Of a DNA stretch of 51,323 bases, positions 11,188 through 29,133 are shown piece by piece (the first letter of the stretch is position 1; every line of letters starts with the position of its first letter). The translations under genes and the position numbers were made by a program. The stretch is from a virus: positions 1-51,323 of the IMG/VR virus record IMGVR_UViG_3300022542_000213. The stretch is one strand, 5' to 3'. The notes under the pieces are model-generated. The model made no database searches and was not told the DNA's origin. It worked only from the letters and a program-made list of their open reading frames with translations.

Positions 11188-13038
11188 TTATTCTTTTACC
11201 TCTGTGTTTTCAGGTACTCTGACTAGGGCTACCTGTGGTACAATACCAAATTGACTTGAATTCAAGTATGGTTGTAACGCTAAACCTTCTTCTTTCAATA
11301 GTGCATCAATTTTCTCTGATACTTCTTTAACACCTTCATCTACTTTTTGTGGTGCTTCTGCTGTTAGTTCTCCTTCTGGCTTAACAATCTCTTCTGTAGT
11401 AGTTTCTACTACCTCTGCTGTATCTACAGCTACTTCAGTTTCTGTTACTGATCCTACTGTTTTTTTATTATTTGTCATCTTTTCTATTTTATTCATTACG
11501 TAATAATTTGTACTAATAAGTACATTAGCTACTGAAATAGAGTTTTTAATTGCCATCTCAATAACCTTAGTTGGTTCTACAACACCTGCTTTTAACAAAT
11601 CTTCGTACGTATCTGTTAAGGCGTTGTAACCAAAGTTCTCTTCATCTGTTTCTAGAACTTTATCTACCATATATCCTCCATTTTTCTCACAATTCTCTGC
11701 AATCTGTCTAATAACTGCTTCTGAATAACTCCTGAACATGTCATATAGTCTATCATCATCAGCCATCTCATCTCTATATGCTTTCAGTAAGGTAGTTCCA
11801 CCACCTACTACATAACCATCTTTAAGTGATGCCCTAACTGCATTAATTGCATCTTCATAACGATAAATCTTTTCATTAATCTCTAGTGGTGTTGAACCAC
11901 CTACCTTTAGAGTTACAATACCATTAGTTAGTGATGAGATTCTCTGTTTCAGAGTATTATCTTCTGGGTCTTTCTTCAATAACTTCTTTAGTTCTTTAAT
12001 TCTGTCATCTAATTCCTTATTATCTTTCAATACAGGTGTGATAAGTGTCTTATGTGCATCTGAAAATACTCTCTCTGCCATTACAAAGTCCTTTTCAGTT
12101 AGCTTATTAACAATACTACCACTTCTTTCTGATATTACTTTACCTCCTAGATAAACTGCCAAGTCTTTTAATGTAGTATCATCATTCTCTGATACATATG
12201 AGTCCTTTACAAGACATACTTTAATTCCTCCTTCATTGTGGTTAGCTACAAATGTACTAATTGCTTTATCCATAAAGTCTGTTGCAACAATCACTACAGC
12301 ATTATGCCCCATTTCCTTAACAGCTTTAAGTATTGACACTGCTTCTTCTTTATAGTATAGTCTCTTGTCTGTGATTAACACAGGTACATTACTATAAGTT
12401 ACAGAAGGTTTGGAGCTATCCAATAACAATTCCTTATAAATGATACCTCCATTAACTTTAAAGCCATGATCTTCTTCAATCTCTGTCTTATCATTAGCTC
12501 TATTCTCGTGAATAAATACCATACCATCCTCCCCTACTACCTTAATGGTCTTTACAATATCCTTAGCTATCTCTTCATCATTATTAGCAGAGATTTTAGC
12601 AATGTTAAACAAGTCATCATCACCATCAATCTTTGTAGACATCTCTTTAATCGCTGTAATATAATTCTCCCCAAAAGATTCTAACTTCTTAGTTAATTCT
12701 TTAGGATTATAACCATTGTCTAACATCTTTAATCCTTCTTTAGCTAAGAACCTTGACAATAACATAGTAGTTGTTGTACCATCCCCAGCTTCTGTATTAG
12801 TCTTGAATGATGCTGATTTAAGAACTTGTATAATACTATTCTCTAATCTATCTTCTACTTCAATACTCTTTGCAATAGTATATCCATCTTTAGTACTTGA
12901 CAAACTACCACTTTCGTTTTCTATTAGTACTGTGTTCCCTTTAGGTGATAGTGTTTGTACCACAGGATCAGCTACCATATCACAAGCATTGAATATCCTT
13001 GTTACTATATCTTCTCGTTTAAATATCTCTTTATTCAT
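11188..13038 (-). CDS. groEL: GroEL-like chaperonin with long C-terminal extension
   Basis: 616 residues, against about 545 in bacterial GroEL. TLSPKGNTVLIE and AGDGTTTTML (residues 84-93) form the ATP site, with the catalytic Asp86 kept. YEDAINAVRASLKDGYVVGGG carries the second conserved Asp. The apical domain is strongly diverged. The usual Gly-Gly-Met tail is replaced by about 85 residues rich in Glu, Val and Thr that end in a non-repeat segment. The start overlaps the amidase stop (TAATG). Likely folds phage structural proteins; whether the tail is threaded into the cavity is unknown. Confidence 0.9.
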   Translation of the reverse strand: MNKEIFKREDIVTRIFNACDMVADPVVQTLSPKGNTVLIENESGSLSSTKDGYTIAKSIEVEDRLENSIIQVLKSASFKTNTEAGDGTTTTMLLSRFLAKEGLKMLDNGYNPKELTKKLESFGENYITAIKEMSTKIDGDDDLFNIAKISANNDEEIAKDIVKTIKVVGEDGMVFIHENRANDKTEIEEDHGFKVNGGIIYKELLLDSSKPSVTYSNVPVLITDKRLYYKEEAVSILKAVKEMGHNAVVIVATDFMDKAISTFVANHNEGGIKVCLVKDSYVSENDDTTLKDLAVYLGGKVISERSGSIVNKLTEKDFVMAERVFSDAHKTLITPVLKDNKELDDRIKELKKLLKKDPEDNTLKQRISSLTNGIVTLKVGGSTPLEINEKIYRYEDAINAVRASLKDGYVVGGGTTLLKAYRDEMADDDRLYDMFRSYSEAVIRQIAENCEKNGGYMVDKVLETDEENFGYNALTDTYEDLLKAGVVEPTKVIEMAIKNSISVANVLISTNYYVMNKIEKMTNNKKTVGSVTETEVAVDTAEVVETTTEEIVKPEGELTAEAPQKVDEGVKEVSEKIDALLKEEGLALQPYLNSSQFGIVPQVALVRVPENTEVKE

Positions 13039-17335: not shown

Positions 17336-17893
17336 TTATTTACTTGTCAACTCTATATCACTTTCTACTTCATTACCCCATACATCCCAGCCTTCTATCT
17401 TCTCTCTTGCAAATAATTCAATTCTAGGTAAATCACCTAATAACTTAATAATTCGTTCTCTCACTTCGTTTGGTTTTTGTGAGTGTCCTTGTATTTTAGT
17501 ATCAACGACTGAATGTACACCCGCATTAATTCTTTTAGGCTTTCCTTTAGTTGCCATTAAACATAATTCAGCATTAGCTCTTGTCCAGCGACCCATTCCC
17601 CAAAACCAACTAGGTGTTACCTTATTTTTCTTTACCCAAGTAAAAGCTACTGTTTTATAATCAAATCCCCATTTATCAATTAAATCCCAACATTCATTTA
17701 ATTTTGGCATTGTAACCCATAAAAATAATACACAATTTTTATCTGCAATATCTTTAACATTTAAGTTATCAATCCATTCTTTTGATTGTGTTTCATATTT
17801 ACATCCAGCACCTCTATTTCCTGCAAGTGCTTTATCTCTGTAAGACCAAGGTGGATCTGCATATATTATTTGGTATTTTTTTTCTTTATTCAT
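17336..17893 (-). CDS. MT-A70 family adenine methyltransferase
   Basis: 185 residues. DPPW at residues 13-16 is the catalytic motif of MT-A70 N6-adenine methyltransferases. FLWVTMPKL, TRANAELCLMAT and HSQKPNEVRERI fill the other family positions. It would methylate adenine in DNA using S-adenosylmethionine, probably protecting phage DNA from restriction or marking it. No cognate nuclease is adjacent, so it is an orphan methylase. It follows the primase zinc domain gene by a TAATATG junction. Confidence 0.9.
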   Translation of the reverse strand: MNKEKKYQIIYADPPWSYRDKALAGNRGAGCKYETQSKEWIDNLNVKDIADKNCVLFLWVTMPKLNECWDLIDKWGFDYKTVAFTWVKKNKVTPSWFWGMGRWTRANAELCLMATKGKPKRINAGVHSVVDTKIQGHSQKPNEVRERIIKLLGDLPRIELFAREKIEGWDVWGNEVESDIELTSK

Positions 17894-18153: not shown

Positions 18154-18168
18154 GTCTGCGTTCGTTAA
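18154..18168. repeat. 15-base exact repeat, copy 1
   Basis: GTCTGCGTTCGTTAA, identical to 30498-30512. This copy lies between the helicase stop and the zinc-domain start in the leftward mRNA, overlapping the helicase stop codon. Confidence 0.6.
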
Positions 18169-20684
18169 AATTGATTTACAATATCCTCTTCTATATCATC
18201 TGCGTTGTTCAGTTCTTGAGTGAAGTCGGTGAAATCAGAATCCCCCATCTTACCTGTTTCGGGACGGAAACTAAACACCTCTGACTTCATTTCCCCCTTA
18301 TTCTTTGCTACATTTACTTCTATACCCTCATCATGCTTGTTTATAAGCACTACACACTCTGGGTCTTGTGATAAGCTAGAACTACCTTTAAGGTCGTCTA
18401 AATTCGGTTTGCGTTCTAAAACAGCACCAGCTTGTTCTATCTTTCTTATATGAGTTACAATGATAATGATAATACCATGCTCCTCACCTATTCTTTTTAA
18501 GTTTTGTAGGGTGTTAGATATTTCGGCTTCTCTCGATCCACCAACATGTCTAACTAAGTAGTCTAAGTGATCTACAATAACAACTTTAGTGTCAAATAGT
18601 CTCTTGGACTTTATAATAGTGTCTATTATCTCGTCTTTCTTTGGTACAGCAAAATACAATGGCTTGTTAATACAATCCTGTATAATTTCATCCCACTCAT
18701 TTTCATTAGTAAATCCAAAGTCTTCGTTAGTCTTATCATACCTAACATTCATAAATCGTTTACCCACAGCATCAATCCCTCTTTCAAAGGGCATTATAAG
18801 AACAGGGGTGTCTTGATCTAATATATCATTAGCTACATTTAAGACATAAGATGTATTGTGTGTAACAGTAAAGCTATCAAGTAAATATAAGCCATCTCCG
18901 TCAAGTGTAAAGCCAAAGTATTCACCAACACCTAATTCTTCTACATCTAATTTGGAAGTAAGCCAATTCTTTTTACAACAAAAATTACTTTTCTTTCTAT
19001 CAAGTCTAGTTGGAATTAATGATATATCACCAGTAATATAAATTCTATTATATTCACCAGTAAAATTAATTGATTTAATACTTTTCTTTGTTTTTGTTAT
19101 TTTAGCTCTAAAACCTAACGATCTAGCTAAGAATACAATATCATTCGATAATTGAGTATTCTTCTGTATAATCTCAAAGTATTCACCTCGTTCAGTTTTA
19201 GATAGTGACCCATCAGTATCAATTAGCCCAGCTAATACTTCTAATCTACTTTGTCTATCATTTATTTTATATTCCTTTGGAATATGTTTGTTATTTAGTA
19301 AATTATAATATCTTAAATTATTAAGAATATAATTACTACCTTTCTTTCTGCTTGGACTAATCATATCCATCGTTATAGAATTATTGTCCTTTTGTTCTCT
19401 TACTGTAACATCTAAGTCACATACACACGCATAATGATATATAAAGTCTTTTATATACTCATCTTCTGTTGTGATCTGTGTCTTGCTAGAAGTACCATCA
19501 CCTAACCACAAACCGACAAAGTATGGATCTAATTTTATATCTTGATAATCAAAATCCACACTTGTTTTCCAACCTCGGTAATGTCTTCTTGTTTCTGGTT
19601 TAATCTTTAAAAAGTCTTCTACAGACATTTCTTTATCAACTATCTTCGTTTTCTTTTTCTTCTTATCCCAGCTATCTTTTTTAAGAGAAAGGATATGACT
19701 TTTATTTACATCATAATATTCATTTCTTTCATGAATACGATACATTTCTTCTTTTCCATTCGCTAAAGATAATACTGTTCGTGGTTTGGATTCTATCCCC
19801 ATTAGCTTATCACCAATAACTATTTCTTCAACATTCTTAATAGAACCATCAGACATTAATAGTTTTGTACCTTTAGCATGGCATTTTCCACTATTAGTTT
19901 TACCAGACACGACAATAAGCCAATCCTTCTCCATAGTAACCTTTGGGAAGAATTTTGTTGTAACTGTATTTTTAGTTGGGGTGCGTAGACTTTCAATAAT
20001 GTCTCCTAACCCCTTGAATTGATAGTTATAGTAAGGTTTTGCGTTTTCCAGCAATTCTCTATAGTCATCTTTAGTATATGACTTAAAGAACTCATTAGCA
20101 TCTTTTATTTCATCTGGGTAACATACTTCAAAAGACTTGTCAATACCTAGTCTATCAGCCATCTTTAAAGCACTAGCTTTTCCACCTTCATCATTATCGT
20201 AAGCTATATATATCTTTGGTATGTTATCTAACTGTTCTATCCATACACCAAAACTATCCTTGCCAAAAGCTGGACTTACGACATTCTTATACCCAACTTG
20301 CCATGCAGAAATGAGATCAAATTCTCCTTCCACGACTAAAACCCCCCCTTTCTTTAAGCCGAGATCTATACCTTCATCATTGAAGATCCATGTCTCTGCT
20401 CCATACTCGGAGGAGTATTTTTGTTTCTTTGGGTTTAAGAACCTATACTTAACATTAATAAGTTCACCTCTTTTGTAAATCGGGATTGATATGGCATCTC
20501 TCTTTTCGTCATAACCTAATTTGAAGTGTTTGATTGATTCATCAGAAAGCCCTCTCTCATTACGTAAGTAATCTTGGGCTATCTCATTATTGTTAAGTTT
20601 TTCAATGTACTCGTCAATCTTCGTCTCATCAGGTCGTTTATAATCAATGCCAACGGTTTCCCGCATTGATTTTATTATATTCAT
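18165..20684 (-). CDS. Toprim-DnaB-type replicative helicase with intein
   Basis: 839 residues before splicing, about 496 after. Residues 1-60 are helical. VVEGEFD (Glu119) and AYDNDEGG (Asp163, Asp165) form a Toprim primase site. The RecA-like helicase starts near 250, and its Walker A (SGKTNSGK, 260-267) is cut by an intein, resuming with T611. KVVIVDHLDYL is Walker B, and IIIIVTHIRK and DLKGSSSLSQDPE follow as later helicase motifs. It unwinds DNA and, with the separate zinc domain, primes the lagging strand. Activity requires protein splicing. Confidence 0.9.
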   Translation of the reverse strand: MNIIKSMRETVGIDYKRPDETKIDEYIEKLNNNEIAQDYLRNERGLSDESIKHFKLGYDEKRDAISIPIYKRGELINVKYRFLNPKKQKYSSEYGAETWIFNDEGIDLGLKKGGVLVVEGEFDLISAWQVGYKNVVSPAFGKDSFGVWIEQLDNIPKIYIAYDNDEGGKASALKMADRLGIDKSFEVCYPDEIKDANEFFKSYTKDDYRELLENAKPYYNYQFKGLGDIIESLRTPTKNTVTTKFFPKVTMEKDWLIVVSGKTNSGKCHAKGTKLLMSDGSIKNVEEIVIGDKLMGIESKPRTVLSLANGKEEMYRIHERNEYYDVNKSHILSLKKDSWDKKKKKTKIVDKEMSVEDFLKIKPETRRHYRGWKTSVDFDYQDIKLDPYFVGLWLGDGTSSKTQITTEDEYIKDFIYHYACVCDLDVTVREQKDNNSITMDMISPSRKKGSNYILNNLRYYNLLNNKHIPKEYKINDRQSRLEVLAGLIDTDGSLSKTERGEYFEIIQKNTQLSNDIVFLARSLGFRAKITKTKKSIKSINFTGEYNRIYITGDISLIPTRLDRKKSNFCCKKNWLTSKLDVEELGVGEYFGFTLDGDGLYLLDSFTVTHNTSYVLNVANDILDQDTPVLIMPFERGIDAVGKRFMNVRYDKTNEDFGFTNENEWDEIIQDCINKPLYFAVPKKDEIIDTIIKSKRLFDTKVVIVDHLDYLVRHVGGSREAEISNTLQNLKRIGEEHGIIIIIVTHIRKIEQAGAVLERKPNLDDLKGSSSLSQDPECVVLINKHDEGIEVNVAKNKGEMKSEVFSFRPETGKMGDSDFTDFTQELNNADDIEEDIVNQF
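18855..19883 (-). mobile_element. Intein with LAGLIDADG homing endonuclease
   Basis: Residues 268-610 of the helicase (343 aa). It begins with Cys268 (CHAKGTKLLMSDGSIKNVEE) and ends VTHN610, followed by extein Thr611. FVGLWLGDG and LAGLIDTDG are the two endonuclease motifs. Insertion after the Lys of the P-loop splits the ATP site, a common intein location. The intein would excise itself and could home into intein-free helicase genes. Confidence 0.93.
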
Positions 20685-20729
20685 TTATTCTCTTTTTCTG
20701 TATTTTATCGGTCTCTAACAGACTTAATT

Positions 20730-20748
20730 GGGGGCGTTTATATCCCCC
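20730..20748. other. GC stem-loop upstream of the helicase gene
   Basis: GGGGG (20730-20734) pairs with CCCCC (20744-20748) across a 9-base loop in an AT-rich gap. There is no T run, so it is a weak terminator candidate or an mRNA processing site. Confidence 0.35.
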
Positions 20749-20758
20749 TATAAATCTA

Positions 20759-20947
20759 CTATTGTACTTTTTCTATTTCATATTTAGACAACGTTAAACT
20801 TGAATATATATTACATCCACGTTGATTATCATAATATGCTTCCTTAATCTTAACTTCTTTTCTATCCGATGTATAACCAATAAATATAAAATATTGTCCC
20901 GTTATGACATGTCTTACTTTTTCACCTCTTTTAATATATTTAAACAT
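20759..20947 (-). CDS. Small beta-rich hypothetical protein
   Basis: 62 residues with alternating strands (VRHVITGQYFIFIGYTSDRK, VKIKEAYYDN), resembling a small SH3-like barrel, with Lys-rich edges. It follows the ATP-grasp gene by one base (TAAAATG). Function unknown. Confidence 0.5.
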   Translation of the reverse strand: MFKYIKRGEKVRHVITGQYFIFIGYTSDRKEVKIKEAYYDNQRGCNIYSSLTLSKYEIEKVQ

Positions 20948-20948
20948 T

Positions 20949-21713
20949 TTAACTTATTTTTAACTCATAATTAAGAATAGCATTTACATAACTATTTTCA
21001 GTTGAGTCCGCCATTCCGCATGCCGTATTACACTCTAATACATAATACTCTCCGTCCTCTCCTCTAATGATGTCTACTGCTCCAAAATCAAGTCCTAAAG
21101 CCTGTATAGACTTAATTGCGATTCTACCTAACTCTGTGTTAAATTTGATACCTCCTCTGGCAAACGTCCATCCATTTTGGTGGCTCTTAACCATCCTGTG
21201 TTCTTCACTAACAAATTCTTCTTCATCAGGGTTAAGTCTTACCTTCTTTGACATATCTATAACATTCCCATCAAAGACATGTACTCTATATTCTGCTCTG
21301 GCAGGTATAAATCGTGTATATAGTGGTGCTACTGGTAAATTATCGCTAGTATTAAATATTTCAATACCTTCACCACTATGTCCATCTAATTTATGTCTAA
21401 CTACTACCTTACCATAAATATCTCCTGCTGATATGGGGTTATCTTTAAAAAGTGGTACAAGGATATTATTCTCTGAAAGAATTTGCAATGCCTTTAATTT
21501 GTTACTAGCATTACCCACAGCACTTGGCTTATTTAACCACTTAATACTATCAGACATCCAATTAGGTACTTTAGAATTTCCCCAATTAATAACTAAATCA
21601 TCAATCTTATTTCTATAGTTTCTATCAGGATAGACTTGTAGCCCTCCTAACCTTTCTTTTAGTTGCTTACTTGAAGCAGAACCGACCTTGTATGGATAAA
21701 GAATTTTTCGCAT
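20949..21713 (-). CDS. ATP-grasp carboxylate-amine ligase (RimK-like)
   Basis: 254 residues. NASNKLKALQILSENNILVP, the glycine-rich loop VVRHKLDGHSGEGIEIF (104-120), EYRVHVFDG, LDFGAVDII and YYVLECNTA (Glu227-x-Asn229) follow the ATP-grasp order of RimK/D-Ala ligase relatives. Such enzymes form amide bonds between a carboxylate and an amine using ATP. No distinct substrate domain is visible. Downstream genes (class II and class I amidotransferase-like enzymes, amidoligase) suggest a shared amide-forming pathway, though an endonuclease gene and others lie between. Confidence 0.8.
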   Translation of the reverse strand: MRKILYPYKVGSASSKQLKERLGGLQVYPDRNYRNKIDDLVINWGNSKVPNWMSDSIKWLNKPSAVGNASNKLKALQILSENNILVPLFKDNPISAGDIYGKVVVRHKLDGHSGEGIEIFNTSDNLPVAPLYTRFIPARAEYRVHVFDGNVIDMSKKVRLNPDEEEFVSEEHRMVKSHQNGWTFARGGIKFNTELGRIAIKSIQALGLDFGAVDIIRGEDGEYYVLECNTACGMADSTENSYVNAILNYELKIS

Positions 21714-21737
21714 ATCTTTATATTAGTTAGTTATTAA

Positions 21738-22187
21738 TTATAGTGATTCCTCTTTTTGTAAATACTCTATAGCAAGTTTCATTATTAGTATGTCATCCTT
21801 GAAATGTCCTAAACCAACATTACATCTATGACATAATAAACCTCTTATAAATCCAGTTTCGTGATTATGATCTACAACTAATCTATTTACAGATTTACAT
21901 ATTTTACATGATCCATTTTGCTCATCATACATATCATTATATGTTTCTTCTGTCAACCCATATCTTCTTAATGTTTTGTTCCTTCTTTTTTCTGTTGTAC
22001 AATATTTTTTTGAAGCAATCCTCCATATACTTTGTAAACGTTTCTTATTTTTAGATTTATATTTTTGGAAATATTCTGCTACACATTTCTTACATTTAGA
22101 ATTAATATAACCTCTTTTTTTATCACTAAAAGAAAATTCGGATAAATCTCTAACTATTAAACATTTCGTACATTGTTTTGTTTTCAT
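21738..22187 (-). CDS. Recombination endonuclease VII-like HNH nuclease
   Basis: 149 residues. YGLTEETYNDMYDEQNGSC, CKICKS, VVDHNHETGFIRGLLCHRCN and GLGHFKDD match the endonuclease VII family. The N-terminal CTKC and CKKC pairs form a further zinc site. Family members are either Holliday-junction resolvases or free-standing homing nucleases. Its own leaderless promoter and flanking inverted repeats, between unrelated genes, favour a mobile homing gene. Confidence 0.85.
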   Translation of the reverse strand: MKTKQCTKCLIVRDLSEFSFSDKKRGYINSKCKKCVAEYFQKYKSKNKKRLQSIWRIASKKYCTTEKRRNKTLRRYGLTEETYNDMYDEQNGSCKICKSVNRLVVDHNHETGFIRGLLCHRCNVGLGHFKDDILIMKLAIEYLQKEESL

Positions 22188-22193
22188 AACCCT

Positions 22194-22222
22194 ATGATAT
22201 CATAACTAGAGTTATTTGTCAA
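22194..22222 (-). promoter_or_regulatory. Leaderless promoter for the endonuclease VII-like gene
   Basis: On the minus strand: TTGACA (22222-22217), 17-bp spacer, extended -10 TGATATCAT (hexamer 22199-22194), then six bases and the ATG at 22187, which is the expected first base of the mRNA. Confidence 0.8.
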
Positions 22223-22250
22223 ACTATATACTATAAATTTCGTAATTATA

Positions 22251-22357
22251 CCCCACAACCATATTGCTGTGGGGTTGACTTCTATGTCAAAAATTTCTTA
22301 CTGAATATTACGTAACAGGATATTTTATAACTTCATCCCTCCTCTAAACTATTCAGT
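22251..22357. other. Gap with two inverted repeats
   Basis: CCCCACA (22251-22257) pairs with TGTGGGG (22268-22274), and ACTGAATA (22300-22307) pairs with TATTCAGT (22350-22357). They lie between the kinase-phosphatase stop and the endonuclease promoter. The first may act as a weak terminator. Confidence 0.45.
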
Positions 22358-22422
22358 GTCTTATATACTATACTATTGTGTTTCAAAAGTCAAGTGTATA
22401 AGTAGTTGTGATACAATCTATC

Positions 22423-23316
22423 TTAAAAGTCAACCCCATCCCCACAGTCTACCGTTGCTATCTTATGTTTCTGGTACATCCTAATCACAGAAGGTCTATC
22501 ATCATAAGCTATTCTAACGTCATCAACTCCAAACATTTTTAACATATCCTCTTTAACCTCTGTATCAGGTCTAAAGTCATTTTTAGCCCTCATAAACATA
22601 CATTTAGCCCTATCTAGTATTTCGGGGCAATGTTTGTTAAACCATTTAATTGTTTCTGCCCTATACTTTTCATTACGTCCAGTTACTAAGAATAGATCAT
22701 AACCACTATTATCAAGTATTTCTTCAATTTCATCCCAAACATCCTCTCTGAAAGTATCTAAGTTACATTCAGCAAAAAAGGATTCCCAATCTTTATGTTC
22801 TCCTTGTACATGCTTAATCCTTTCTCCTATATCAGCTAAAGTACCATCAATATCAACTAGCATTACGCCATTCCATGAAATCCACATATGATTCTTTAAA
22901 GCATCTTTCCAAATTACATGATCCCCGACTGGATTATCTCTTTCTCCATCTCTTTTTACACAATCAGTAACTATAACATGTTTAGTTTCTAAAGTATGAA
23001 AATCAGCACCATTTTTTTGGGCTAATTTAAACCATCTCTGCCTATCTACAGGTTTTAAATTATCATTGTCTACAATACAACTAATACCATGACTTAAACA
23101 TTTATCAATTATACTTTCTTGGGAATTTCTTACTTTAAACTCCTTGAAAGAACCCTTTTTATCAAGAAACAAACTTAATCTTAAATCGTCAAGACTTGTT
23201 CTGAAAATACTATTTTTAGATCTCTTGACTAAATCTTTAGCCATTGTGGTTTTACCACTAGCTGTTAAGCCTTTCATCATATATAATTTAGGCATTGTTT
23301 TTCTAATTGCTATCAT
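22423..23316 (-). CDS. pseT: Polynucleotide kinase-phosphatase (T4 Pnkp-like)
   Basis: 297 residues. The N-terminal kinase has the P-loop GLTASGKTT (16-24) and RTSLDDLR. The C-terminal half is a haloacid dehalogenase phosphatase with DIDGTLAD (155-162), LFLVTGRN and AYDDRPSV. T4 Pnkp adds 5' phosphate and removes 3' phosphate, preparing nicked tRNA or DNA for ligation. No RNA ligase is seen in the window, but a phage tRNA gene lies nearby. It is two genes downstream of the tRNA in the leftward direction. Confidence 0.9.
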   Translation of the reverse strand: MIAIRKTMPKLYMMKGLTASGKTTMAKDLVKRSKNSIFRTSLDDLRLSLFLDKKGSFKEFKVRNSQESIIDKCLSHGISCIVDNDNLKPVDRQRWFKLAQKNGADFHTLETKHVIVTDCVKRDGERDNPVGDHVIWKDALKNHMWISWNGVMLVDIDGTLADIGERIKHVQGEHKDWESFFAECNLDTFREDVWDEIEEILDNSGYDLFLVTGRNEKYRAETIKWFNKHCPEILDRAKCMFMRAKNDFRPDTEVKEDMLKMFGVDDVRIAYDDRPSVIRMYQKHKIATVDCGDGVDF

Positions 23317-23333
23317 TATTATTAAACTATCAA

Positions 23334-23819
23334 TTAAACTTCGTCTTCTGATAAGTTATCCTCATCAACAGGATTATGTATTTCATCTCTTTCACTATTA
23401 TTAAGGTGTGAGCCTATAAATTCATCTCTATCATTTTTATTTATATAAAAATACTCATAAGCTAGTGATATTAGATAAATCTTTTGTGGTACAGGTAAAT
23501 CTTCAAACTCGGTTAAAAGAACCTTAACTACACTTTTAGTGTCTCCTAAATCACCAAAATATAAACCATAAGATTTACCATCTTTCACTAACTCTACAGT
23601 AGTCTCATTTAACTTAATTTTATAGGGGTTAGGTACTTTTTCTTCTTCTGGTACTTCAATAGTATCACCAGTACTAAAACCATACTCTGCAGTGGGCATA
23701 TCCCATCTTATATAATCACCATTCCCTCCAGTTCTTGTAGGTACTGGTAGTTGTGATCTCATTAATGATTCTCTTGCAGTTTCTCTTAATATGTGTCTCT
23801 CTCTTGGTGTTAGTGGCAT
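23334..23819 (-). CDS. Hypothetical acidic protein
   Basis: 161 residues. A basic N-terminal helix (PLTPRERHILRETARESLMR) is followed by a mixed domain with FEDLPVPQKIYLISLAYEYFY and an acidic tail (VDEDNLSEDEV). No family recognised. It joins the upstream gene by a TAATATG junction and lies between the tRNA and kinase-phosphatase. Confidence 0.5.
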   Translation of the reverse strand: MPLTPRERHILRETARESLMRSQLPVPTRTGGNGDYIRWDMPTAEYGFSTGDTIEVPEEEKVPNPYKIKLNETTVELVKDGKSYGLYFGDLGDTKSVVKVLLTEFEDLPVPQKIYLISLAYEYFYINKNDRDEFIGSHLNNSERDEIHNPVDEDNLSEDEV

Positions 23820-23820
23820 A

Positions 23821-24195
23821 TTAGTTATTTATTAAATTATTAACAATAGTCTTAATTCCATCTTCGTTATCAAAATCAACTTTTAATACATTTTGTATAT
23901 AAACTCTCATTGAATTTATTAACTCGTTATTAAATAGGAATATCCCATGTGTCTTACCCTCTAACCACTTTTTTGCAGAATCATCATCACCATTAGCACC
24001 TTTCCATTCAAAGAATACTATCAGTAAATAAGCTATCTGATATTCTGTATAATCATCAATAAGATCTTTAAACATTTTACCTGTTAAGCCGTAATTAATA
24101 CGTGGCTTAATTCCATACTTATTATTATATAGAATAGAGTAAATTGTACTCAATCTTATTACGTAATTATTCCCTAAGTTTTTTGGTAACTCCAT
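23821..24195 (-). CDS. Hypothetical protein directly after tRNA-Phe
   Basis: About 124 residues, helical and aromatic (MFKDLIDDYTEYQIAYLLIV then FFEWKGANGDDDSAKKW). The open frame extends back to 24237, but that stretch is the T arm and acceptor of the tRNA, so the real start is the ATG at 24195. This lies one base after the tRNA discriminator. Cutting at the tRNA 3' end would leave an mRNA with a single-base leader. Function unknown. Confidence 0.6.
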   Translation of the reverse strand: MELPKNLGNNYVIRLSTIYSILYNNKYGIKPRINYGLTGKMFKDLIDDYTEYQIAYLLIVFFEWKGANGDDDSAKKWLEGKTHGIFLFNNELINSMRVYIQNVLKVDFDNEDGIKTIVNNLINN

Positions 24196-24196
24196 G

Positions 24197-24267
24197 CTCT
24201 CTCTGAAGGAATCGAACCTTCGTATTTCGGGCTTCAACCGAACGCTTTACCACTAAGCTAAAAGAGA
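24197..24267 (-). tRNA. tRNA-Phe (anticodon GAA)
   Basis: Full cloverleaf on the minus strand: 7-bp acceptor (24267-24261 with 24204-24198, one G-U), D arm GCTT/AAGC, anticodon stem TTCGG/CCGAA with loop TTGAAGC, and T arm GAAGG/CCTTC with loop TTCGATT. The discriminator is G rather than the usual A, and CCA is not encoded. It is embedded between protein genes of the leftward transcript. Confidence 0.93.
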
Positions 24268-24282
24268 ATGTGCTATTTTCGT

Positions 24283-24600
24283 ACGCACCTAATATATTCT
24301 TTTGAGTTAAGTTCTGTTATATTGGACTATAACAGAAAGAATAAGGCGTAAGGATTAAGATACTTTGTTGCTTGATATGATATACTCTTTTCACGGAGTA
24401 ATGTTTCAGTGATCTGTATTCCGTATCTATAGTTTTTAAATAGCTAACCCCCAGAATATCCTAACCGATTATGAATTGCGGTTGGACGACCCAACGTTAA
24501 TTCACAATTAGACTTTAAGTTAGGGTAATCCCAGCTTGATTTATAAAAAGATTATGTGGCGTTGTTTGGTAATTAACTCAAATCTTGCCTAAGCAATGCC
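24283..24600. ncRNA. Structured RNA region upstream of tRNA-Phe
   Basis: A gene-free 350-base stretch with nested pairings: TTTGAGTTAA (24301-24310) with TTAACTCAAA (24573-24582); a 10-bp hairpin 24312-24321/24328-24337; TATCCTAAC (24457-24465) with GTTAGGGTA (24519-24527); GTTGG/CCAAC around 24481-24495; GGCGTTG (24558-24564) with CAATGCC (24594-24600). Two wobble pairs favour the plus strand, although neighbouring genes are leftward. No known family (group I intron, tmRNA, RNase P) was recognised. Confidence 0.5.
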
Positions 24601-24615
24601 ATTAAGATGCTCCAT

Positions 24616-25836
24616 TTACGCACCACCACCTAATCTAATTTGTAATTGTTTTAGTTCTTGTTCAAATTCTAGTAATTCTTCAATAAACTCCTCTTGATTA
24701 TCCTCCATTTCATCAAGAATTGCTTCGTTGTAAACTTGTGAAGTATTTCCAGCTTCTACAAAATCTTGACAAACCTTAATATCTTTATCAAGATCATTCA
24801 CGAGTTCTCCAATTCTTGCAATTTCATCCTCTACATATTCATATCTTTCATTTTCTTCGTCAAACATACTGTTAGCCATTTCACCAAAATCTTTCTCTAC
24901 ACCACTTTCTAATAGATTTTGAGCATAACCATCATTAGACATACCATTTATGAAATCATTATCAACATGAATCATAGTCATCTTTCCAGTTTCAGCATCT
25001 ACCTCGTAAGGATCTTCATAAGGTCTTCTAGTATCAAATCCAGCAGGTCTCTTATATTCACTTCCACTATTCCAGCTATTGTAAGTAGGTTTATAATAGT
25101 TACCAATATCTACATTATTTTCTGTAGTCTTACCTGTTTTGTAATCAATAGTAACTAATACATCTTCTTCAACTGACTGTCCGTTTCCAACTGATTTAAG
25201 AACAAACATACCTTTATTTTCCTCTAAAATAAGTGGGTTTCTTGAATTGTGTCCGTAGTGGATATTCTTAATAGAACCTCTCTTATCAGTTTCAAAACAA
25301 ATAAATGCTATTGACCCTTTGGATTTAAAGTGTTCTTGCTTACCTTCAAGATATAGGGCGAGATCTATTGAAAATGATTCACTATCATTGTAAAAGTCTT
25401 CTTCGGTAGTAACTTTAGTCTTACCTCCAATCCTATATAACTCTTGCTTTTGCATCTCTGTAGTGTACTTGATACCTAATTCTTCGTGTTCCTTCTTTAA
25501 ATCATCAGAGTTACTAATAATACCATTGTGGATCACATAATAATTACTCTTGAATATCTTATGCTTAACTGTAATAGGATGGTTGACATCCTCAAAGTTA
25601 GGTGTACTTGTTGGTATTCTGTGATGGAAAAGAATCTCATCAGACTTTTCCTGTTTTAAGGCATTAGTAACTTCACTTAATGTCTCAAATCTTTTAACAC
25701 CTCCTATTTTACCATCATAGACTGGTATATATCCAAAACCTTGTACACCTCTACTTTTCTGTTTTTGGAATCTCTTAATAACAGTCTTGTTAGCACGAGA
25801 TTTATTATTTCTTTTAGTGTATATAATTCCACACAT
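24616..25836 (-). CDS. Class II glutamine amidotransferase
   Basis: 406 residues. It begins MCGI, so Met removal exposes the catalytic Cys2. HHRIPTSTPN (71-80), VNHPI and VIHNGIISN (101-109) bind glutamine, as in glutaminase domains of GlmS and asparagine synthetase. No synthetase domain follows; the C-terminal third is an acidic coiled coil, likely for partner binding. It would release ammonia from glutamine for a separate ligase. The next gene upstream is an amidoligase, five bases away, so the two probably form a complex. Confidence 0.85.
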   Translation of the reverse strand: MCGIIYTKRNNKSRANKTVIKRFQKQKSRGVQGFGYIPVYDGKIGGVKRFETLSEVTNALKQEKSDEILFHHRIPTSTPNFEDVNHPITVKHKIFKSNYYVIHNGIISNSDDLKKEHEELGIKYTTEMQKQELYRIGGKTKVTTEEDFYNDSESFSIDLALYLEGKQEHFKSKGSIAFICFETDKRGSIKNIHYGHNSRNPLILEENKGMFVLKSVGNGQSVEEDVLVTIDYKTGKTTENNVDIGNYYKPTYNSWNSGSEYKRPAGFDTRRPYEDPYEVDAETGKMTMIHVDNDFINGMSNDGYAQNLLESGVEKDFGEMANSMFDEENERYEYVEDEIARIGELVNDLDKDIKVCQDFVEAGNTSQVYNEAILDEMEDNQEEFIEELLEFEQELKQLQIRLGGGA

Positions 25837-25841
25837 TACTG

Positions 25842-27428
25842 TTATTTTTTGTTTTTATCTGATAATGTTAAACGTTCAATTCTCTCTCTGTAGAAAACTT
25901 CGGTATCTTTAGGTAGTTTCAGTATGCTAAAGAAAGCATCAATTTTATCCTCTAGTAAATAAATATCACTCATTTTCTTCATTTGGGCGAAAGTTATTTT
26001 ACCATCAGACACTTTGTCTAGTATAGCTTGGTGTAACTTAACCCAATAAAGAATTTTCTTTGCGTTTAGAGTACCAGCATGTAATCTGATCTCTACAGTA
26101 TGTTGCTTATTACTGTTAAACAATGGGTGTAAATTAAAGTGATAATAACGACTACTTACGTACCTATTATTTTTAATTGAATTTAACTTGTTACTGCTTG
26201 TAGCCTTGTACCAATATTTCTCAATATCAGAAGGATCAGAGAAATGGTTAAGGTCGTAAATTCCGAAGGCATTTTTCAATTTTAGACAATATCCATTATT
26301 TTCCCTTCGGCTTTTAGGTTGTGTAGCAAACAAAACATCCTCAAAAGTTAGATAGAAAGCAAACAATGTTGATAACTTCTTTGTACTATCTCCACCTTGA
26401 AGAAGAACTTTATCTGTAGATTTTGGTTTATATTGTTTAGTAAAGTCTCCGTTATCATCTGCTCCAACATATCCATTTATTCTACATACAGAATCTTTAT
26501 GCTCTATAATTATATGATTAAATATCTTTAGACGAGAAGTTTTTTGTTGTATTAGAGTTACAAGTCTATCAATACCATTATAATCATTAACATAATTGTT
26601 ATACAGAGATGTTGGTATAACAATAGGTGTTATATCAGACTTTTTAATATGGGCAATTATCTTTGCCTTCTCTGAAAAGTTGACAACTTTAAGATTCTCT
26701 GGTAAGAAATCTTTACCTCCTAAGTGTACATGTATTCCAGTAGTTTTATTGGTATAGTTACCATATTTTTGTAGTGTTTTACATGTCTCTCTAAGGACAT
26801 CCTCCCCTTTCTTACCTTTAAGTACAGGTGTAACTACCTCTAACCCCTCGTTTCTTTCCATAGAAGAATCTTTACGTCCATCAGGGTGTATAGATCCATC
26901 ACCTGTTAGCCCCATTTCATCAGCTAATTCTTGACTAAGCCCATTGGCTCTACCAACACACTCTATCTCTACACCAAAAGTCCTTTCAGAAGTGATAATC
27001 TTACCTTTGTCTTTACTTTGATACTTTTTAGAAGTAGCATTAAAACTCCTTCTTTGAAAATTACCTTCACCATCACCTCTTAAACAGTTAAGACATATAC
27101 CACTCCTATATTCAGATACATGTTGACTACAATGTGAACATCTAATACAATCATTTCTGTCATAACAATCTTGACAATAATCATCACCATTTCGCATCCT
27201 AGTGGCATTATCCTGATGGTATATATCGCCACAATCATCACAATAAACGTAATTATTCATACACTCACTTTCACACATCATACCCTCTGATGTTCCTTCA
27301 CAGTCATCATATTTTCCACAACCTTCACATTCTTGAAAAGAGGTATTATCAAGACATACTTTACACATGTCTCCTTCTACTGTATCGTACATTACACCCT
27401 CATCTTTTTCACAATTTATACAACTCAT
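25842..27428 (-). CDS. Amidoligase with Cys-rich N-terminal region
   Basis: 528 residues. Residues 1-117 hold about nine Cys pairs (C3xxC6, C22xxC25, C34xxC37, C63xxC66, C85xxC88, C94xxC97, C112xxC115), a multi-zinc-ribbon module. Then FGVEIE (151-156), GLEVVTP (195-201), GIHVHLGG (231-238) and TVEIRLHAGT mark the Amidoligase_2 family, glutamine-synthetase-like enzymes that form amide bonds. The ribbons may bind a protein or nucleic acid target. It is adjacent to class II and class I amidotransferase-like genes. Confidence 0.85.
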   Translation of the reverse strand: MSCINCEKDEGVMYDTVEGDMCKVCLDNTSFQECEGCGKYDDCEGTSEGMMCESECMNNYVYCDDCGDIYHQDNATRMRNGDDYCQDCYDRNDCIRCSHCSQHVSEYRSGICLNCLRGDGEGNFQRRSFNATSKKYQSKDKGKIITSERTFGVEIECVGRANGLSQELADEMGLTGDGSIHPDGRKDSSMERNEGLEVVTPVLKGKKGEDVLRETCKTLQKYGNYTNKTTGIHVHLGGKDFLPENLKVVNFSEKAKIIAHIKKSDITPIVIPTSLYNNYVNDYNGIDRLVTLIQQKTSRLKIFNHIIIEHKDSVCRINGYVGADDNGDFTKQYKPKSTDKVLLQGGDSTKKLSTLFAFYLTFEDVLFATQPKSRRENNGYCLKLKNAFGIYDLNHFSDPSDIEKYWYKATSSNKLNSIKNNRYVSSRYYHFNLHPLFNSNKQHTVEIRLHAGTLNAKKILYWVKLHQAILDKVSDGKITFAQMKKMSDIYLLEDKIDAFFSILKLPKDTEVFYRERIERLTLSDKNKK

Positions 27429-27430
27429 AT

Positions 27431-28150
27431 TTATTCAAAAAAATTAGCTATTAATTTATAATCCTTTAATTCCTCTGGATGCCATTGAATAGCTAACACA
27501 GGAGAACCCCTAAAACTTTTAATGTTAAATGCTTCCACTACTGAATCGTCTACTCCGACCCCGAATCCTGTAGATCCACATATTTTAAAGTTATCATTTC
27601 TTTTGTTAAACTTCTTGACGCTACCCTTTAGAATAACAGACTGATGGTGTATAGAGTTTACAAACATTCTATTATACTTATCTTTATTGTTATACAATAA
27701 TTCTGATATTATGTTTATACCATGTGTTGTAGCATCTCTTTCTGCTTTCAATTCTTTGGGGGCGTTATGTTTCTTAATATCTTGTCTATATTCAAGACTA
27801 TCGGCATTATTCTCATTCATATATTCCCTAAATAAGAGTTGAAATCCTCTACATATCCCAAAAATAGGTTTCTTAACGTCTGTAAATGCTTTTATAACAT
27901 CTCTCTCAAAATCATCTCTATCTTGGTTACAAATATTAGATGCAATATTATTATATCCATAGAAAGTGGGATCAACATCAATACCTCCAGCTAACATTAA
28001 ACCATCACAAGCTTTAGTTATATCTTCATAATCAGAGTTTGGATAAACCAAAACTGGCATCATTCCAGCCCCGAGTACATAATCAACATATACTCTGTTT
28101 ATGTACATCTGTTTTTTATTAAATGGTATTGGTATTGCTATTATTTTCAT
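27431..28150 (-). CDS. Class I glutamine amidotransferase-like gamma-glutamyl hydrolase (peptidase C26)
   Basis: 239 residues. GICRGFQ (98-104) gives nucleophile Cys100; IQWHPEE supplies His224 and Glu226; SIHHQ and LAGGIDVDP are typical of the PuuD/C26 group. These enzymes cut gamma-glutamyl amide bonds. In amidoligase operons such a partner is thought to trim or recycle the product. It is joined to the amidoligase by a TAAATATG junction. Confidence 0.88.
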   Translation of the reverse strand: MKIIAIPIPFNKKQMYINRVYVDYVLGAGMMPVLVYPNSDYEDITKACDGLMLAGGIDVDPTFYGYNNIASNICNQDRDDFERDVIKAFTDVKKPIFGICRGFQLLFREYMNENNADSLEYRQDIKKHNAPKELKAERDATTHGINIISELLYNNKDKYNRMFVNSIHHQSVILKGSVKKFNKRNDNFKICGSTGFGVGVDDSVVEAFNIKSFRGSPVLAIQWHPEELKDYKLIANFFE

Positions 28151-28153
28151 AAG

Positions 28154-28327
28154 CTAAAATTCTATATCTAAATCATCCTCTAAATCCTCAAAAGGATCTG
28201 TACCATTGACAATATTCATATCAATCATAACCTCGTCAACTTTATCCTGTGCTTCACTAACATCCCCATGTTCGTTAGAAAAGTCATTTAAAAGACTCTC
28301 TAGTTGTTTTAATTTTGATAATTCCAT
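28154..28327 (-). CDS. 57-residue acidic protein
   Basis: A short Glu/Asp-rich protein (MELSKLKQLESLLNDFSNEH start; DPFEDLEDDLDIEF end). It is the first gene of the transcript that carries the C26-like, amidoligase and amidotransferase genes. It could be a carrier, substrate or adaptor peptide for them; its many carboxylates make it a conceivable substrate, but this is only an inference. Confidence 0.6.
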   Translation of the reverse strand: MELSKLKQLESLLNDFSNEHGDVSEAQDKVDEVMIDMNIVNGTDPFEDLEDDLDIEF

Positions 28328-28358
28328 GTTTGTTGTATTACTTTATTAATAATTATAT

Positions 28359-28401
28359 ATTATACTATCTAAAATATATGTCAAGTAAATTCTGTGGATA
28401 A
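28359..28401 (-). promoter_or_regulatory. Leftward promoter with upstream TTATCCACA box
   Basis: On the minus strand: TTATCCACA (28401-28393), eight bases, TTGACA (28384-28379), then an AT-rich -10 (TAATAT or TATAAT near 28357-28364). It drives the amidoligase operon. The box is a perfect DnaA-box match, shared with other leftward promoters. Confidence 0.6.
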
Positions 28402-28436
28402 GTCCAAATTTAATCAGTTACAGGGAATTTATCTAA

Positions 28437-28454
28437 GTTTGTCAAGCGACAAAC
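28437..28454. promoter_or_regulatory. 18-base inverted repeat, operator candidate
   Basis: GTTTGTCAAGCGACAAAC is a perfect 7-bp inverted repeat with a 4-base loop, upstream of the amidoligase operon promoter. It contains a TTGACA on the minus strand, so it may be an operator or a second -35. Confidence 0.4.
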
Positions 28455-28511
28455 TCGTCTATCTTTGTCAACCCTCCAACTTGATCCTCTCTATCTTATT
28501 ATTATTTTAGT

Positions 28512-28856
28512 TTATAAAGTCTCCAAGTAGGTTTCTATTGAACCTCCTTCTTGTAGGTGTGGCATTAAGCCGTTCATTTTCTTTTTCCAACCTTGAATAA
28601 TACATTCTTTACAATTTCCTGTATGAGCGAAGCCTTGTTGAAATTTAAAAGAACATTCTTCTACCCATTTTTCTGTTTTTCCAACTGCTTCCCAAGAGTT
28701 TTTGTCTAGGAGGATTGTTTCTATTGGAGTTGTTAATTCGTGCATTCCATTTCTACTAAGAGTTACATGTTGAGATTTCTCACTGTAATATTCCAATTTA
28801 ATTCCTTTTCTCCACCCCCCCTCTATTGCTTTTTCAATATATTCTTTTGGTTTCAT
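28512..28856 (-). CDS. Conserved phage-type small Cys protein
   Basis: 114 residues. CKECIIQGWKKKMNGLMPHL near the C-terminus resembles a segment common in small phage proteins of unknown role; a Cys upstream (EECSF) may join a metal site. The N-terminal helix IEKAIEGGWRKGIK is basic. It follows the next gene by one base. Function unknown. Confidence 0.5.
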   Translation of the reverse strand: MKPKEYIEKAIEGGWRKGIKLEYYSEKSQHVTLSRNGMHELTTPIETILLDKNSWEAVGKTEKWVEECSFKFQQGFAHTGNCKECIIQGWKKKMNGLMPHLQEGGSIETYLETL

Positions 28857-28857
28857 G

Positions 28858-29133
28858 TTATTTGTTTTTTATTTTGGTTATTAAATCGTATAACGCTGTA
28901 TTGTAGATACTTCTCCATTCATCATTTTTCTTGACAGACCCTAAAAGTTTTCTTGTCATTCCTTCAGCCATCTCAACTATTTCCTCCCTCTCTTTATCTT
29001 TGACTTTTTGGAGGGAGGTTTTAATTTGTTTACGATGACAAGTACACCAAATCCTTTTGCCATTTTCACATTGGCAAACTTTACAACATTCCATCTTCAT
29101 TAGCTCCTCAACTATTTTATCTATTGTGTTCAT
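28858..29133 (-). CDS. Cys-rich N-terminus, helical C-terminus, hypothetical
   Basis: 91 residues. CCKVCQCENGKRIWCTCH gives six cysteines and a His, a likely zinc knuckle, followed by a charged helix (QKVKDKEREEIVEMAEGM). No Shine-Dalgarno sequence. A terminator lies just upstream, so it may have its own promoter or depend on readthrough. Confidence 0.55.
   Translation of the reverse strand: MNTIDKIVEELMKMECCKVCQCENGKRIWCTCHRKQIKTSLQKVKDKEREEIVEMAEGMTRKLLGSVKKNDEWRSIYNTALYDLITKIKNK

Follow-up and report, generated by a model that had tools for sequence, protein, structure and literature searches.

The window analysed here is the whole of the IMG/VR virus record IMGVR_UViG_3300022542_000213 (51,323 nucleotides), a 51.3-kb stretch of 33% GC that has no terminal repeat and encodes a glutamine synthetase (GS)-like amidoligase, a class II glutaminase, a RimK-like ATP-grasp ligase and a peptidase C26 hydrolase. 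We consider it probable that these genes represent a divergent member of a known phage amidoligase cassette, which would form amide bonds on a host molecule, likeliest a peptide of the host wall or surface; their membership in the cassette, taken by itself, is close to certain. The kind of system is already known, since the same gene set has been published as a seven-gene "peptidoglycan modification cassette" of phages phiEco32, 7-11, PA11, tf, LUZ24, PaP3, CW02 and RIO-1 (PMC5498523). The same cassette is described in two further reports (PMC11945000, PMC6256558), and in LUZ24-like phages the gene block lies beside the primase/helicase (PMC3890496). Modification of the host wall is the published hypothesis for its function, and papers citing Iyer et al. 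2009 credit the general prediction to that work (PMC5498523, PMC11945000). The original prediction for this window, made from the letters alone, had remarked that such phage neighbourhoods were predicted before, and these reports bear it out.

The five open reading frames (ORFs) singled out in that prediction are all present on the minus strand at the positions it gave. A 57-aa acidic ORF (28154..28327) is followed after 3 nt by the class I glutamine amidotransferase (GAT-I) or peptidase C26 gene of the gamma-glutamyl hydrolase type (27431..28150), after a further 2 nt by the amidoligase gene (25842..27428, 528 aa) and after 5 nt by the gene of the stand-alone class II glutamine amidotransferase (24616..25836), in agreement with the gaps of 2-5 bases reported earlier. 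The ATP-grasp gene (20949..21713, minus strand) starts 2.9 kb past the end of the glutaminase gene, against a distance of about 3 kb given earlier, and the interval holds two unknown ORFs, a PNK/HAD protein, endonuclease VII, a tRNA-Phe and a 348-nt gap. Beyond it lies a primase/helicase with an intein (18165..20684, minus strand; Pfam and PHROGs matches), a conserved gene that also adjoins the cassette in Zobellviridae, LUZ24-like phages and their kin, with a matching gene block beside it in Zobellviridae. The published cassette (phiEco32, LUZ24, PaP3, tf, PA11, CW02 and RIO-1/HP1) shares with the window Amidoligase_2, the class II amidotransferase, the RimK-like ATP-grasp, a GAT-I and the adjoining primase/helicase. 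Unlike it, the window is without the COOH-NH2 ligase (PF14395), a protein of ~190 aa with unknown function and GGCT, its GAT-I comes from another clade, its amidoligase has a front end with eight CxxC pairs, and extra ORFs and a tRNA separate the glutaminase from the ATP-grasp.

Clustering of the core three genes was assessed in 80 IMG/VR loci picked by the ATP-grasp, 58 of which have at least 4 kb of upstream sequence. Amidoligase and glutaminase are both present in 57 of these 58; the clustering is not due to chance, and the earlier idea of one module is borne out. When loci picked by the COOH-NH2 ligase and by the glutaminase were added, the core three were found in 133 contigs, the window counted. 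In 116 of 172 cases the gene immediately 5' of the glutaminase is the amidoligase, at a median distance of 4 nt, which makes this pair the likely catalytic core; judged from gene order and sequence, the two proteins likely work together.

Within the same sample, L183 (8173-12601) and L193 (3548-10882) each carry two copies of the amidoligase-glutaminase pair, arranged in tandem or close together. A second kind of ligase-glutaminase pair is seen in L184, L189, L191, L205 (7006-11953) and L206 (871-3698), where a COOH-NH2-like ligase of ~500-630 aa directly precedes the glutaminase and no amidoligase was detected. Cassette glutaminases are also carried by contigs binned as metagenome-assembled genomes (MAGs) of Poribacteria, Paceibacterota and Aenigmatarchaeota (L203, L204 and L206, with an amidoligase as well in L204), which are possibly misbinned phage contigs.

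Each of the four enzymes retains its catalytic residues on alignment, and hidden Markov model (HMM) searches support the families, as had been foreseen for four enzyme types that make, feed or cut amide bonds in one leftward region. The Amidoligase_2 and Peptidase_C26 models score over their cutoffs; GATase_6 falls under its own, and here the GlmS models and the fold provide the support. The amidoligase matches PF12224 at 1.3e-22 (81 bits against a cutoff of 22), and its catalytic part (residues ~146-500) keeps the invariant residues ExE (154, 156), D177, E197, HxH (233, 235), R374 and ExR (446, 448). In its predicted structure (predicted local distance difference test score, pLDDT, of 82) this part gives weak GS-fold matches in the PDB to YbdK, glutathione synthetase, Dop, GS and GmaS, all with E values of at least 0.001. 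The viral structure models that it matches are phage amidoligases, with E down to 7e-13, and a single-sequence IMG/VR scan with the protein returned no relatives.

The Cys-rich front end (~1-115), with 18 Cys and eight CxxC pairs within the first 150 residues and a local pLDDT of 56-90, weakly matches LIM4-5 of PINCH1 in Foldseek (E 0.14-0.32). Comparable front ends with 5-8 CxxC pairs occur in L089, L173, L183, L204, L091 and others, and the feature, which had been put forward as notable, is therefore a recurring option among amidoligases and not special to the window; it weakly resembles LIM-type zinc domains. In these five loci, which include phage and MAG-binned contigs, the zinc-fronted amidoligase is followed at once by the glutaminase, as in the window. 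Unlike the window, L089, L173, L183 and L204 have no GAT-I; L091 is the exception in having one, and it differs from the window further in its COOH-NH2 ligase and in carrying two glutaminases.

The glutaminase reaches only 19 bits against GATase_6 in Pfam (cutoff 27) and matches the GlmS/PRK00331 model of NCBIfam at 6e-9. Its predicted structure (mean pLDDT 80) resembles the glutaminase domains of GlmS and PurF (Foldseek E ~1e-10), and since the GlmS models, a PDB profile search and the predicted fold agree, its identity as a class II, Ntn-type glutaminase is settled. With its Met-Cys2 start it has the nucleophile C2, as well as R73 and D151 that bind glutamine and N104-G105 of the oxyanion hole, all of them conserved. 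Fold and catalytic residues are thus those of the GlmS/PurF domain, but the protein stands alone, with a helical tail in place of a sugar isomerase or phosphoribosyltransferase domain. That tail (314-403), described earlier as a coiled coil, is no more than a predicted two-helix hairpin. A single-sequence IMG/VR scan gave one partial match for this protein, and tblastn against phages gave none.

The ATP-grasp ligase belongs to the phage cassette family phrog_2599 (1.3e-63), shares 35-41% identity with cassette ATP-grasps and retains the metal and ATP motifs. Its closest solved relatives in the PDB are RimK-type alpha-L-glutamate ligases. RimK PF08443 passes its Pfam cutoff (9e-6), whereas R2K scores remain under theirs, and membership in the R2K clade was rejected. 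Among annotated phages, the ATP-grasp has hits in 310 records and the COOH-NH2 ligase in 311, and the host tallies of the two are almost the same.

The C26 hydrolase matches PF07722 at 9e-34 (118 bits against a cutoff of 20.5), contains the triad C100, H224 and E226, and has Lin1909 (5.7e-13) and PuuD (1.5e-7) as PDB kin, and it lies nearer to the cellular Lin1909 (52.6 bits) than to cassette GAT-I (37 bits). In a tree it falls outside the main clade of cassette GAT-I (branch support 96/93, with a long-branch warning), in a group that holds PuuD-like cellular C26 proteins as well as L091/L092. The sequences called cellular there, other than E. coli PuuD, are unannotated wastewater or faecal contigs filed as phage records, and the group is so labelled because of PuuD, Lin1909 and the character of those contigs. 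At 42 bits against a cutoff of 266 the protein falls short of the PuuD equivalog PRK11366 in NCBIfam, and a single-sequence IMG/VR scan with it returned no relatives. On sequence grounds, the C26 of the window looks to be of cellular type and separately acquired.

The COOH-NH2 ligase is usual in the cassette but not universal, being absent in 27 of the 58 ATP-grasp loci. A GAT-I or GGCT accompanies it in 80 of 97 contigs and occurs in one of 36 contigs without it, that one being the window. Among loci selected by the ATP-grasp the corresponding counts are 29 of 31 and 0 of 35, and after clustering at 70% identity, which removes sharing by descent only in part, 29 of 31 and 0 of 7 (Fisher p=3e-6). 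The strict rule that the ligase always comes with a GAT-I or GGCT held at first (31/31) and was given up when the larger sample weakened it to 80/97. That the ligase travels with an enzyme cleaving gamma-glutamyl bonds is nevertheless a hint of gamma-glutamyl chemistry. A sensitive HMM search of the window found no COOH-NH2 ligase (best E 0.035), GGCT or ~190-aa protein above threshold. The nearest kin, chosen by genes shared with the window (L010, L011, L017, L022 and L025), have in common with it the primase/helicase (5/5) and the terminase (3/5) at 43-55%, and show 35-38% identity in the glutaminase and 37-42% in the ATP-grasp. Unlike the window they encode GGCT and the COOH-NH2 ligase, have no GAT-I, and carry amidoligases with a short or Cys-poor front end. 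The C26 gene lies where the COOH-NH2 ligase and GGCT of these kin would be expected, and if the record is complete enough, the simplest reading would be that a cellular-type C26 was gained and those two genes were lost.

With these components, the glutaminase would release ammonia from glutamine, and the GS-like amidoligase would activate a carboxylate with ATP to form an amide or to join an amine. The RimK-like ATP-grasp would add an amino acid, likeliest glutamate, to the same substrate, and the C26 enzyme would handle a protecting-group or editing step in which a gamma-glutamyl bond is cut. A host peptidoglycan peptide or surface polymer, the likeliest target, may when modified in this way block superinfection or re-tune the wall, as the published hypothesis has it. 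For the target alone, a peptide of the host wall or of a surface polymer, we would put the chances slightly short of even. It can further be speculated, as a tentative and on balance doubtful extension, that amidoligase and glutaminase suffice by themselves as a glutamine-dependent amidotransferase of two proteins, whether or not other genes of the cassette accompany them, that zinc front ends direct this enzyme to a macromolecular target, and that in the window a cell-derived C26 replaced the COOH-NH2 ligase and GGCT and so rebuilt the gamma-glutamyl step.

Several points weigh against a wall-directed cassette with an exchanged hydrolase. In the literature examined we found no experiment on the product of the cassette, and no module gene shows specificity for export, lipid II or sugars. 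The zinc domains on the amidoligase would fit a protein or nucleic-acid target equally well. The branch of the window GAT-I is long, and its placement in the tree is therefore not firm; 17 of the 97 loci with a COOH-NH2 ligase have no detected GAT-I or GGCT, and some of these 17 lie at the end of a contig. The window, a linear record, is possibly not complete, and a COOH-NH2 ligase could be located beyond it.

Host or phage proteins such as the ribosome or RNA polymerase, to which the ATP-grasp and the amidoligase would add amino acids or amides and which the LIM-like front end would bind, are an unlikely but real alternative target. The relationship of the ATP-grasp to RimK-type ligases, the recurrence of the zinc front end with its weak PINCH1 match and the position of the module among replication genes are all in keeping with it, and modification of proteins has been proposed for phage R2K ATP-grasps (PMC4431377). 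However, the GAT-I and GGCT partners fit small gamma-glutamyl compounds better, many cassettes have no zinc domains, and the neighbourhoods link to no protein target. Those same partners speak for a second real rival, which we regard as rather unlikely: a small amide or gamma-glutamyl metabolite (a product of amine salvage, or a peptide linked to a nucleotide or sugar) made for infection or against host defence, with gamma-glutamyl protection and removal. The tie between the COOH-NH2 ligase and GAT-I or GGCT supports it, as does the presence of a gamma-glutamyl-CDP-amidate hydrolase among the weak NCBIfam matches of the C26 protein. The combination of a ligase and a gamma-glutamyl remover also recalls E. 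coli PuuA/PuuD, where a GS-fold gamma-glutamyl ligase is paired with a C26 hydrolase as in the window, although the window amidoligase belongs to PF12224 and not to GlnA/PuuA. A metabolite of this kind is harder to reconcile with the window, which has no COOH-NH2 ligase, and with the 26 of 58 cassettes in which both that ligase and any gamma-glutamyl remover are missing.

Hypermodification of phage DNA bases, one of the options in the original prediction, is very improbable and the least likely target. The module does lie beside the primase/helicase and zinc domains can bind DNA, but RsaI, HpaI, EcoRV, SmaI and HaeIII cut the DNA of the cassette phage tf (PMC3517423), 11 of 16 enzymes cut that of the cassette phage U17 (PMC11945000), and none of the module genes was recognised as one for base synthesis. 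That unrelated metabolic genes lie near each other by chance is hardly credible: the C26 gene looks separately acquired and the ATP-grasp is set apart by 2.9 kb of intervening genes, but for the core three, found together across very divergent phages, chance is contradicted. For the C26 gene and the 57-aa ORF it may still apply.

Around the module, the 57-aa acidic ORF (pI 4.05), proposed earlier as a lead peptide, is a real ORF, but only its position ahead of the C26 gene connects it to the module; it has no family match in Pfam, PHROGs or NCBIfam and no relative in the loci compared, and its membership is doubtful. The tRNA-Phe (GAA; 24196..24267, minus strand), between the glutaminase and the downstream genes, probably stands outside the cassette. 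It overlaps the TTG start called for the ORF at 23821-24237, for which the ATG at 24195 is the likelier start. The 348-nt gap (24268-24615) contains no ORF of at least 40 aa on the gene strand, and an Rfam search of it returned tRNA only. A promoter scan found promoter-like sites in numbers not above those in shuffled sequences, and a near-identity search of the window against phages gave no match. The primase/helicase, with its intein carrying a LAGLIDADG homing endonuclease (Hom_end_hint, Hom_end), is 839 aa long, compared with 483-516 aa in the five nearest kin. Two genes from it lies an MT-A70 type DNA methyltransferase (PF05063, 2.2e-28; 17336-17893), and a GroEL-like chaperonin (Cpn60, 1.6e-45; 11188-13038) has ~31% identity to its best phage-record matches. 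Genes in 18165-29133 have A-rich leaders and no clear Shine-Dalgarno motifs, which, with the 33% GC, resembles Bacteroidota and their phages and is a weak hint of the host.

The cassette is widespread, with ~310 annotated phage records carrying its ATP-grasp, and has for years been a predicted wall-modifying system. From the comparison a minimal unit emerges that can be put to the test, made up of amidoligase and glutaminase. The window itself contributes one exceptional arrangement of a known cassette and not a new system, and is a natural exception to the rule by which the COOH-NH2 ligase and an enzyme cleaving gamma-glutamyl bonds occur together.

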